Assembly: GCA_902524635.1 (NCBI GenBank)
Contig: CABZDY010000002.1
Coordinates: 1 to 63,171 of the forward strand
Length of the DNA: 63,171 bases
DNA from: an uncultured Pelagibacteraceae bacterium
GTDB taxonomy: Bacteria; Pseudomonadota; Alphaproteobacteria; Pelagibacterales; Pelagibacteraceae
Direction of reading: 5' to 3'
A program made the translations under genes and the position numbers. Shown one piece after another: positions 3,001 through 48,243 of the stretch. Below the pieces are notes generated by a model. That model was not told the DNA's origin. It saw nothing but the letters and a program-made list of their open reading frames with translations, and did no database searches. The first letter of the stretch is position 1. Every line of letters starts with the position of its first letter.

Positions 3001-3054
3001 AATTGTAAAATTTATTGAATTTAATATGAAAAAGAATTTAAAAGTTATTAATTT

Positions 3055-3410
3055 GCCAGATAAAATATAAGCCGGGTTCTGTCTTTTAAACTTATCATTT
3101 CTCTAGACCTTAAATCACTTTAAGGTTCAAGCAACTAACCCAGATGACTAGCCAAAGACTGCTTTTTGTTATTTCTAACTGTGTCATCTCTACTCAGTCT
3201 TGCTCCCAGTGGGGTTTTCCATGCGCTAGCTGTTACCAACTTAGCCGGTGTGCTCTTACCACACCTTTTCACCCTTGCCTTGATAAGGCGGTTTATTTTC
3301 TGTGGCACTATCCCTAGGGTCACCCCCGCCAGCCATTAACTGGCACTGTGTCTTTGTAGAGCCCGGACTTTCCTCTTTAATAAATTAAAGCGATAAGTCT
3401 TTTATCTGGC
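3055..3410 (-). ncRNA. rnpB: RNase P RNA
   Basis: Minus strand has GAGGAAAGTCCGGGCTC near the 5' end and ACAGAACCCGGCTTA near the 3' end; P1 helix GCCAGATAAAA/TTTTATCTGGC pairs the ends. Confidence 0.96.
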
Positions 3411-5048: not shown

Positions 5049-5648
5049 TTGATGATCAAATCCAAAAAATTTTACCTTTTTTTTTTATTTTTATTTTTAT
5101 TTTTAATAAATCCTTTGGTAGCCAAAGAACCAAGTGATTTAATTACTGAAATAGTCAATGAGGCATCTTTAATTTTATCAAGTTCTGATCCAGTTGAGTC
5201 AAAGATAATTAAACTAAATAATATTGCAGAAACAAGTGTAGACATAAATGGAATTGGTAGGTACGCATTAGGGAAATACCGCAAAAAACTGAACGATGAT
5301 CAAATAATAAAATACAAAAAATTGTTTAAAAGCTATTTCTTAAAAAGTTTTTCAAGTAGACTAGTAGATTACTCTGATCCAAAAATTAGTGTTGTTTCTG
5401 AAAAGATAATAAATGAAAAATATACGATTGTTAATACAGTTTTAGAGGAGACATCTAAAAACCCAGAAATAAAAATTGATTGGAGAATTTACACAAAAAA
5501 TCCAAATAGACCATTAATCAGGGACCTTATTGTTGAAGGATTAAGTTTAGCAAGAACTCAAAAAGAAGAATTTAAATCTATTATACAAAATAATGATGGT
5601 GATATAAATTTTTTATTCAAATCTCTCGAAGAATTTATAATTAAATAA
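5049..5648 (+). CDS. mlaC: ABC-type phospholipid transport periplasmic protein MlaC family
   Basis: Signal peptide, GRYALGKYRK, IDWRIYTKNPNRPLIRDLIVEGLSLARTQKEEFKSII typical of MlaC/Tgt2. Confidence 0.88.
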   Translation: MMIKSKKFYLFFLFLFLFLINPLVAKEPSDLITEIVNEASLILSSSDPVESKIIKLNNIAETSVDINGIGRYALGKYRKKLNDDQIIKYKKLFKSYFLKSFSSRLVDYSDPKISVVSEKIINEKYTIVNTVLEETSKNPEIKIDWRIYTKNPNRPLIRDLIVEGLSLARTQKEEFKSIIQNNDGDINFLFKSLEEFIIK

Positions 5649-5649
5649 T

Positions 5650-5726
5650 TGGTGGGCCCGCCAGGACTCGAACCTGGGACCAATACATTATGAGTGTACT
5701 GCTCTAACCAACTGAGCTACAGGCCC
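5650..5726 (-). tRNA. tRNA with CAU anticodon (elongator Met or Ile2/lysidine type)
   Basis: GGGCCTG TA GCTC AGTTGGTTA GAGC A GTACA CTCATAA TGTAT TGGTC CCAGG TTCGAGT CCTGG CGGGCCC A CCA. Confidence 0.95.
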
Positions 5727-5784
5727 AAAAATTAACTTAATTATATCATTTTTTCACAGTTATCAATTACAGATAATCATTTAA

Positions 5785-5859
5785 TGGTGGGCCGTGTTGG
5801 TTACGCTCCAACTACCCCTGCAATGTCAATGCAGTACTCTACTATTGAGCTAACGGCCC
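5785..5859 (-). tRNA. tRNA-Val(GAC) with non-canonical T and D loops
   Basis: GGGCCGT TA GCTC AATAGTA GAGT A CTGCA TTGACAT TGCAG GGGTA GTTGG AGCGTAA CCAAC ACGGCCC A CCA; all four stems pair. Confidence 0.88.
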
Positions 5860-5861
5860 TA

Positions 5862-7700
5862 TTAACTTTCCAGAAAACTTTTAAGTTGTTTGGATCTACT
5901 AGGATGTTTTAACTTTCTCAGTGCCTTTGCCTCTATTTGACGGATTCTTTCTCTAGTTACAGAAAACTGTAACCCAACTTCTTCTAAAGTATGATCTGTA
6001 TTCATTCCAACTCCAAATCTCATTCTAAGAACTCGTTCTTCTCGAGGAGTTAATGTTGATAAAATTTTTGTAGTTGCCTCACTCAAGTTTGATTTTATTG
6101 CTTGCTCTAAAGGAGCTAAAGCTTTCGTATCCTCTATAAAATCCCCAAGGCTACTATCTTCCTCATCACCAACTGGTTTCTCTAGTGAAACTGGCTCTTT
6201 TGAAATTTTTAGTACTTTCCTTACTTTCTCAAGTGGCATTCTTAATTTTTTTGCAAGTTCTTCTGGAGTTGCCTCTCTTCCAAATTCACTTAAAATTAAT
6301 CTTTGAGTTCTGACAATTTTGTTAATTGTCTCTATCATATGTACTGGTATTCTTATAGTTCTAGCTTGATCAGCAATTGATCTAGTTATTGCTTGTCTGA
6401 TCCACCACGTAGCGTATGTGGAGAATTTATATCCTCTTCTATATTCAAATTTATCAACCGCTTTCATTAAACCTATATTGCCCTCTTGAATAAGATCCAA
6501 AAATTGTAGTCCTCTATTTGTATATTTTTTAGCTATTGATATTACCAATCTAAGATTAGCTTCAACCATTTCTTTCTTTGCAATTCTAGACTCTTTTTCT
6601 CCCTTTTGAATCCTGCTAACCATTAACTTAAATTCAGTAACAGAAATTCCAAGCTTATTACTTATTTCAATCAACCTATCTCTAATATTTTTAAACTCTA
6701 TTTTATTTTTTTGGAAAAATTTTTTCCATACATCATTTGTATCAAGAAAACTTTTTAAATTTGGATTTATCTCATTACCTACATAAAATTTTATAAATTC
6801 ATCTCTTGTAATATTCTCGTTTAACGCAAGTCTTAATAAATTTCCTTCTAATGAAACTATTTTACGGTTCTCAATATAATGTTTTTGCACTAGTTCCTCT
6901 AAGACAGACGGTGACAATTGGAGTGTTTTTATATTATCTAATATTTCATCGACTATTTTTTTATAATTTTTTTCTTTTGATGGAGAAAAGTTTGTTGAGT
7001 TTAAGACACATTCTAACTTTTCATTTTGATATTTTATTAGTTTATTGTATTCTTTAGTTAAATTATAAATAGTTTGCAAAACTTTAGGTTTTATTTCTGT
7101 CTCCATTGCTGCAAGAGTTGGATTAAATTCATCGTCATCTGAATTACTACTAGTTTCTTCATTATTTTGATTATCATTTCCATCGTCAGATTTTTTTTGT
7201 TTTGCACTTTGACCAGTATCTTCATCCTCCATATAATTTGTATCAATATCAATTATTTCTCTAACTAGAATTTCATCATTTTGTAGTTTATTGTTCCAAT
7301 CAAAAAATTGTTGGGCTGTAATAGGGGTTTGTGAAAGTGCATTTAACATTACATCTTTTCCAGCCTCAATCCTTTTGGCAATTGCAATTTCACCTTCTCT
7401 AGAGAGTAATTCAACTCCCCCCATCTCTCTAAGATACATTCTTATAGGATCATCACTTTTTTCAATCGATTTGCCCTCATCTTTTGAACCGTTCTCTTTT
7501 TTTCTTAAAATTTTAAAATCGGCTTTCTTTTCAACTAAAACTATTTTTTCATCAAGAATGTGAATAAAAGCTTGTTCCAAATTTTCATCTGATAGATTTC
7601 TTTTTCCTAAAGATTTGTTTAATTCCTCATAGGTTATGAAACCCCTATGGACACCTCTGCCCATCAATCTTGCAAATGATTTTGTAATTATACGTTCCAC
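5862..7700 (-). CDS. rpoD: RNA polymerase sigma factor RpoD (sigma-70)
   Basis: [86 protein letters not shown]-type region 4. Confidence 0.98.
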
Positions 7701-47094: not shown

Positions 47095-47127
47095 TAACAA
47101 GTAGACTCAAAATAATTCAATCTCAGG

Positions 47128-47156
47128 TTGACGGAGACTCTACTCTGGAGTCTAAT
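47128..47156 (+). promoter_or_regulatory. Candidate sigma-70 promoter of ccrM (TTGACG-N17-TCTAAT) with embedded GANTC inverted repeat
   Basis: -35 TTGACG 47128-47133; -10 TCTAAT 47151-47156; inverted repeat AGACTC-N7-GAGTCT 47135-47153. Confidence 0.65.
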
Positions 47157-47169
47157 TAATAATTAAAAA

Positions 47170-48243
47170 ATGAGTAATCAAACTTTAAAAAACAAAATTA
47201 TTAATGGAAATAGTTTAAAGGAATTAAAAAAAATTCCTGATGAAACTTTTGATCTTATTTTTGCTGATCCTCCGTACAACCTTCAATTAAAAAAAGAATT
47301 GAGAAGACCAGATACATCTAAAGTAGATGCTGTAGTCGATAAATGGGATCAATTTGAAAGTTTTAAAAGTTATGATGAATTTACTTTTGATTGGTTAAAA
47401 GAATGTAAGAGAATATTAAAAAAGAATGGATCGATTTGGGTAATTGGTAGTTATCACAATATTTTTAGAGTGGGTGCTACAATCCAAGATTTAGGTTTTT
47501 GGATACTAAACGATGTAATTTGGAATAAAAATAATCCAATGCCAAATTTTAGGGGAACAAGGTTTACTAACGCACATGAAACACTTATTTGGGCATCAAA
47601 AAGTGAGGGGTCGAAATACACTTTCAATTATCAATCATTGAAATGCTTAAATGATGATCTCCAAATGAGATCTACATGGAGCATTCCAATCTGTAATGGC
47701 AAAGAAAGATTAAAAAATAATGGAAAAAAAGTCCATTCTACTCAAAAACCAGAAGCGTTACTCCATAGAATAATATTAGCCTCATCAAATAAAAATGATT
47801 TTATTTTAGATCCATTTATAGGATCAGGTACCACAGCTGTTGTTTCTAAAAAATTAGGTAGAAAGTATTTTGGAATTGAAAAGGAAAAAAATTATTTTGA
47901 TGCTACAAGAAAAAGATTAGACAATACATATGTTATAAAAGATGAATATCTGGATACACTTCAAAATAATAGATCAAAACCAAGAATTCCTTTTGGATCA
48001 TTAGTTGAAATGGGTTTGATTAAACCTGGAACAGAAATTTATGATCAAAAGAAAAAAGTAAATGCTAAAATTATGGTGGATGGAAGTATAAAATATCAAC
48101 AATCAGAGGGTTCAATCCATAAAGTTGCAGCAAAAATTATTGGTGCAGAAAGTTGTAACGGATGGACTTTTTGGCATTATAAATCTGGAAATTCTTTAAA
48201 ACCAATTGACGATTTGAGACAAAGATTAAGGCCTACAAATTAA
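47170..48243 (+). CDS. ccrM: Adenine-specific DNA methyltransferase, CcrM-like (predicted GANTC)
   Basis: IINGNSLKELKKIPDETFDLIFADPPYNLQL, STQKPEALLHRIILASSNKNDFILDPFIGSGTTAVVSKKLGR, C-terminal CcrM-specific domain GSIHKVAAKIIGAESCNGWTFWHY. Confidence 0.95.
   Translation: MSNQTLKNKIINGNSLKELKKIPDETFDLIFADPPYNLQLKKELRRPDTSKVDAVVDKWDQFESFKSYDEFTFDWLKECKRILKKNGSIWVIGSYHNIFRVGATIQDLGFWILNDVIWNKNNPMPNFRGTRFTNAHETLIWASKSEGSKYTFNYQSLKCLNDDLQMRSTWSIPICNGKERLKNNGKKVHSTQKPEALLHRIILASSNKNDFILDPFIGSGTTAVVSKKLGRKYFGIEKEKNYFDATRKRLDNTYVIKDEYLDTLQNNRSKPRIPFGSLVEMGLIKPGTEIYDQKKKVNAKIMVDGSIKYQQSEGSIHKVAAKIIGAESCNGWTFWHYKSGNSLKPIDDLRQRLRPTN

Follow-up and report, generated by a model that had tools for sequence, protein, structure and literature searches.

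Elbow contacts in described tRNAs

The elbow of canonical elongator tRNAs is held by the contacts G18:Psi55, G19-C56 and U54:A58 (PMC4810234, PMC7912444). The outer pair, G19-C56, is touched by the ribosome, RNase P and others (PMC4810234), and the 18-55 pair has been reported as needed for rapid translocation (Pan et al. 2006, as cited in PMC4810234). Eukaryotic tRNA-Ala(AGC) carries R15/A48 and A54/A58 (Westhof et al. 2020, PMC7566577), and both R15/A48 and the purine-purine A54/A58 are described there for eukaryotic tRNAs and stated to be absent in bacteria. Positions 48 and 54 lie on one strand, and the same authors propose that a change from pyrimidine to purine at one of them should draw in the other (PMC7566577). 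tRNA-Pyl lacks both G18-G19 and T-Psi-C and uses other D/T contacts (PMC7609411). In the literature searched, most subscription journals being outside its scope, we found no description of A18:G55, of A54:U58 or of both together. Steinberg and co-workers have reportedly carried out selection experiments with suppressor tRNAs whose D/T contacts were altered.

A SAR11 tRNA-Val(GAC) with an exchanged elbow

The whole stretch of DNA analysed, 63,171 nucleotides from an uncultured Pelagibacteraceae bacterium (hereafter the window), contains a 75-nt gene at 5785-5859 on the minus strand that is called tRNA-Val(GAC) by both ARAGORN and Rfam RF00005 (53.6 bits, gathering score 29). Read 5' to 3', it consists of GGGCCGU, UA, the D-arm GCUC-AAUAGUA-GAGU, A, the anticodon arm CUGCA-UUGACAU-UGCAG, the variable loop GGGUA, the T-arm GUUGG-AGCGUAA-CCAAC, ACGGCCC, A and CCA. 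The anticodon loop lies at 5823-5829 with the anticodon GAC at 5825-5827, A73 is at 5788 and the encoded CCA end at 5785-5787. Its minimum-energy fold is a perfect cloverleaf with all stems paired (z = -3.3 against shuffles). The gene thus has the 7-4-5-5 bp stems of a type I elongator together with a score above gathering, and the anticodon GAC, A73 and orthology to canonical Val-GAC genes that define its identity. What it lacks are the T-loop UUCRA and the D-loop G18-G19, which belong to the near-universal tRNA consensus but are not strict criteria of the Rfam tRNA model; in their place are AGCGU and A18-G19. The original prediction, made from the sequence alone, had described the identity, the two loops, the encoded CCA and the pairing of the four stems correctly, as well as the canonical T-loops TTCGAGT and TTCGAAT of the other two tRNAs in the window.

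In standard numbering, the D-loop AATAGTA (5840-5846) reads A14 A15 U16 A18 G19 U20 A21 and is conserved across the genes with this elbow, and the T-loop (5801-5807) reads A54 G55 C56 G57 U58 A59 A60. The departures from the norm are therefore A18 for G18, A54, G55 and U58 for U54, U55 and A58, A48 (at 5813, in the variable loop at 5813-5817) facing A15, and A60 in place of the usual pyrimidine, whereas G19 and C56 are kept. Altogether six elbow or core positions (15, 18, 48, 54, 55 and 58) are involved or off-norm, plus position 60. The A15/A48 combination and A60 had been missed in the original prediction. We refer to the A18:G55 elbow of the window as type A and to genes with the canonical elbow as type B.

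Compared with the canonical elbow, the window tRNA-Val shares the cloverleaf, G19-C56, the 7-nt T-loop, R57 and G53-C61, but differs in A18:G55, A54:U58, A15/A48 and A60, and has no modifiable uridine or adenosine at 54, 55 and 58. With eukaryotic tRNA-Ala(AGC) and the initiator tRNA (A54-A58) it has in common a purine at 48, A54 and a purine at 60 together, including A15/A48, whereas the eukaryotic tRNAs keep A58 (m1A58) and G18:Psi55. Of the features of the R15/A48 and A54/A58 class it thus has A15, A48, A54 and A60, but not A58. A15 goes with A48 in 15 of 15 distinct A18 genes; the link between 48 and 54 is not strict, since A48 is often retained in type B SAR11 genes together with a pyrimidine at position 15. 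Like tRNA-Pyl it departs from G18-G19 and T-Psi-C, but tRNA-Pyl has a 5-nt D-loop, a long anticodon stem and no G19/C56, while the window tRNA has standard geometry (7-nt D-loop, 5-bp anticodon stem) and keeps both G19 and C56, so that it is not Pyl-like.

Directly upstream of the gene lies rpoD (sigma-70; ORF at 5862-7700, minus strand), a neighbour in type A and type B genomes alike that we used as synteny anchor. Downstream, at 5650-5726 on the same strand, there is a tRNA with a canonical elbow called Met(CAT), probably a tRNA-Ile2, as it is one of three CAT tRNAs in the complete sibling genome G012. The window also contains an RNase P RNA (class A) at 3052-3409 (minus strand) and a match to the bablM sRNA (51.3 bits) at 47104-47173 (plus strand).

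Conservation and compensatory change

The gene was matched in 29 of 61 relatives, and in about 20 of these, same-genus genomes of sibling species, it is identical over 75/75 positions. A recognisable Val-GAC was found in 294 of 399 sampled genomes of the genus, many of them incomplete (MAG and single-cell assemblies), and among the matches listed nearly all are type A. When the exact Val T-arm pattern was searched across 85,462 species, all 80 named records among the matches listed belonged to the Pelagibacteraceae or Pelagibacterales. The same D- and T-loops are found in nearly all named SAR11 records examined which, together with the 75/75 identity, indicates that these loops are not there by chance.

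The lower Rfam score (53.6 bits against 72.7 and 65.3 for the other two tRNAs in the window) could suggest a pseudogene, a decayed att-site copy or a sequencing or assembly error, and genuine 5'-truncated fragments are present in two further SAR11 genomes (L029, 1501-1532, and L222, about 5210-5265, both 3' fragments of type A tRNA-Val, as left by integration at the tRNA gene or by decay). However, the type A gene is conserved in hundreds of genomes and is found in single-contig genomes (G012, G066, G067 and G062, the sibling G066 having the same elbow as the window) and in single-cell and metagenome assemblies alike. Furthermore, 12 distinct divergent type A sequences were compared, and each of them forms the full set of 21 stem pairs; 12 stem pairs have changed on both sides, giving 44 double-change cells where shuffles give 13.8 +- 2.5 (0 of 500 shuffles as high). 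By contrast with these drifting stems, the D-stem, most positions of the loops and the A47/A48 region are near invariant, with little variation in D-loop and T-loop. We consider that conservation and compensatory stem change rule out decay or error, a reading with next to no probability left. Since the stems drift with compensation while the odd loops stay fixed, the pattern points to type A Val-GAC as a selected, working RNA.

The two contacts change in pairs

Of 31 distinct Val-GAC genes of the Pelagibacterales, 15 have A:G at positions 18/55 and the other 16 have G:U, A:U and G:G being absent. At 54/58, U:A and A:U are found in 15 of these genes each and G:G in a single one (G412), and neither U:U nor A:A occurs; these counts are inflated by relatedness and do not correspond to independent events. 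U58 accompanies A18 in 14 of the 15 distinct A18 genes, that of the window included, and G58 in one. A targeted scan of the Val-GAC genes in the 399 genus genomes, for which a pattern control was run, found G18 in 9 genes, all 9 with U55, and no A18 with a base other than G55.

One gene, that of G426, is canonical at G18:U55 and swapped at A54:U58 (D-loop AAAGGUA, T-loop AUCGUUA). Its stems are identical to those of the main type A gene, the differences being confined to D-loop and T-loop positions, and it shows that between type A and the canonical elbow there are at least two populated steps, in each of which two bases change as a pair. By comparison of the genes, 18/55 and 54/58 appear as two separable contacts that switch in separate steps, both bases of a contact changing together. 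The coordinated rewiring that had been proposed is therefore borne out, 18 changing with 55 and 54 with 58 in every case and G426 standing between both steps. It had also been argued that orthologs with a normal T-loop would be a sign of error or of a pseudogene; such orthologs exist, but their D-loops are normal too, which supports coordination rather than error. A Watson-Crick mini-helix between the D- and T-loops (G19-C56 plus U20:G55) was considered but is not supported, as canonical genes have U at position 20 as well and L023 has A there.

The same exchange in other SAR11 and phage tRNAs

In the complete sibling genome G012, A18 is present in exactly 3 of 32 tRNAs, Val-GAC, Phe-GAA (loops AGGAGUA / UGCGAAU) and Thr-GGU (loops AGGUAGUA / UGCAAGU). 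G55 is found only in these three and U55 in the other 29. A18 together with G55 also occurs in the tRNA-Phe of G144, in the tRNA-Phe of G076, from another genus, and in the tRNA-His of G061, from a third one, and in G093 and G065 both sites of the corresponding Phe and His genes are canonical. Various Pelagibacteraceae (L065, L074, L310, L323 and L316) carry tRNA-Phe(GAA), tRNA-Thr(GGU) and tRNA-His with A18:G55 and a normal U54:A58. When one common D-arm pattern was searched in 165 genomes across the class, an A18-type D-arm within a tRNA was found only in the window's own genome; the one match outside SAR11 (L309) was not called a tRNA.

Phage tRNAs with AGCRU, AUCRU and UGCRA T-loops in IMG/VR have the same A18:G55 and A54:U58, also in Val-GAC, although they are viral and mostly isoacceptors other than Val. 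Counting distinct tRNA-like genes among the matches listed, which makes the ratios rough, we found at least 82 with A18:G55 and U54:A58, at least 63 with both swaps and at least 115 with A54:U58 and G18:U55. Broken combinations were rare among the same matches, with G18:G55 in 4 genes and U54:U58 in 1, while A54:A58 was found in at least 74 and A18:U55 in 45, of which 31 have 9-nt D-loops of ambiguous register and 14 have loops of 7-8 nt. From these numbers, G55 would almost require A18 and U58 almost require A54 in phage tRNAs. The reverse rules seem weaker, because of the 14 A18:U55 genes with 7-8 nt D-loops and because A54:A58 is common, so that A54 does not force U58. The isoacceptors are diverse and include Val-GAC; both swaps are found mostly in Ile-GAT, the 18/55 swap alone in Gly-GCC and Phe, and the 54/58 swap alone in Ile and Asn.

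ARAGORN fails to call about 40 clear type A phage tRNAs with both swaps, mostly Ile(GAU) (IMG/VR, L513-L629). Tools trained on the canonical elbow under-call such genes, and the tRNA counts of phages with both swaps are too low. Erythrobacter phage vB_EliS-L02 has an unannotated Val-GAC (OL955261.1, 72153-72227; L880, 31-105) with loops AGCAGUA / GGCAGCA, close to the SAR11 gene of G412 (GGCAGTA). A T-loop AUCGUAA is found in the tRNA-Val of Pseudomonas phage Astolliot and in a Val-GAC of the uncultured 635-kb phage LR745206. A first set of IMG/VR matches to the Val T-arm proved to be chance matches in coding DNA, and named phages with similarity over the 5' half (Vibrio, Streptomyces, Caulobacter, Sphingobium, Agrobacterium and Stenotrophomonas) had canonical elbows.

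Repeated switching at one locus

The type B Val-GAC genes of G081, G082, G151, G315, G326 and G436 lie at the same locus, beside rpoD in 6 of 6, and the CAU tRNA was found in the stretch taken for 5 of the 6. In an RpoD tree of 47 rows, type B genomes are scattered among type A genomes and the well-supported branches force at least 8 state changes, a count that comes from RpoD alone in a tree with many weak inner forks. Because type B genes at this rpoD-linked locus turn up in scattered places within the type A tree, the elbow has switched repeatedly. In the sister family f2, as in most of the family's other genera, Val-GAC is canonical, for which reason the canonical elbow was probably ancestral and type A probably arose no later than at the base of the genus.

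In a comparison of the window with L021, L034, L143 and L146, the gap separating tRNA-Val from the CAU tRNA ranges from about 60 bases (5727-5784 in the window) to more than 900 (G012, G081), which suggests insertions downstream of tRNA-Val. One possible origin, to which we give a minor share of the probability, is uptake of the type A gene from phage tRNAs, the switching within SAR11 reflecting gene replacement or recombination instead of stepwise mutation. Full type A elbows in IMG/VR tRNAs, Val-GAC included, the scattering of type B genes and the variable spacing and 3' fragments expected of an integration site would all fit. However, the G426 gene, with its differences limited to the two loops, looks stepwise, several type B genes have the same acceptor and anticodon stems as type A, and a BLAST search for a source of the SAR11 gene among 50,697 phage records and among plasmids found no match. 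This alternative concerns origin and is compatible with the explanation of function preferred below.

The same fragments and variable gaps, which suggest integrations at the tRNA-Val gene, and the frequency of the alternative elbow in phage tRNAs could also indicate that the elbow changed to escape a reader of the gene or of the tRNA, for example an integrase att site or a tRNA-targeting toxin. We regard this as unlikely, since no integrase, toxin or defence gene was tied to the locus, and long-term identity of the loops over the genus would make them a fixed target again.

Function of the exchanged elbow

GUU and GUC make up 59% of the valine codons in the larger ORFs of the window, GUU being the commonest, so that tRNA-Val(GAC) reads the main valine codon. 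No second Val-GAC was found in the complete sibling G012, in agreement with the original prediction of a sole gene. The suggestion that it is a specialised tRNA did not hold, given this codon usage and the presence of the 18/55 swap in Phe, Thr, His and phage tRNAs. Val-UAC is also present in G012, where Ala and Pro are read by one UNN tRNA each, and for this reason Val-GAC may be dispensable and could have another job. In G093 (97% complete, 26 tRNAs called) Val-GAC was not found by two patterns, so that the gene has either been lost or falls into a gap of the assembly; a loss would leave Val-UAC as the only reader of the valine codons there.

Staphylococcal peptidoglycan tRNA-Gly also lacks G18 and the T-loop UUC. 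This likeness, and the fact that the canonical Val-UAC could in principle read all valine codons, would fit a tRNA with a job outside translation, freed of the constraints of elongation on its elbow. We find this improbable, as Val-GAC is the cognate reader of the commonest valine codon and has no second copy in G012, the tRNA-Phe with the 18/55 swap is the only tRNA-Phe seen in G012 and must translate, and canonical alleles take the place of type A ones, and the reverse, at a single locus.

The gene is very probably an elongator tRNA-Val(GAC) that reads GUU and GUC and has an elbow in which a compensated alternative set of contacts links D-loop and T-loop. Such an elbow would keep the outer exposed pair G19-C56, join positions 18 and 55 by A18:G55 where canonical tRNAs have G18:Psi55, and close the T-loop with A54:U58 where they have U54:A58; position 60, usually a pyrimidine, is A. 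Positions 18/55 and 54/58 would still touch in three dimensions, with an A18/G55 and an A54/U58 geometry. Since the bases at 54, 55 and 58 are A, G and U, the modifications m5U54, Psi55 and m1A58 cannot form, and we infer that the type A tRNA-Val is expressed, charged and works without them.

Taking cellular and phage tRNAs together, we favour with some confidence the existence of a second working elbow code, in which A18:G55 and A54:U58 are independent substitutes usable in many tRNA identities and competent in translation without the T-loop modifications. SAR11 would have fixed this code in the tRNA of its main valine codon and switched it back and forth repeatedly. G18:Psi55 and U54:A58 are taught as near-universal and, if this reading is true, at least one working alternative exists to a part of tRNA that is supposed to be universal. 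The conserved bacterial tRNA and the many phage tRNAs provide natural paired variants for testing what the elbow and its modifications do, and the bacterium that carries the swapped-elbow tRNA-Val, Pelagibacter (SAR11), is an abundant one in the ocean.
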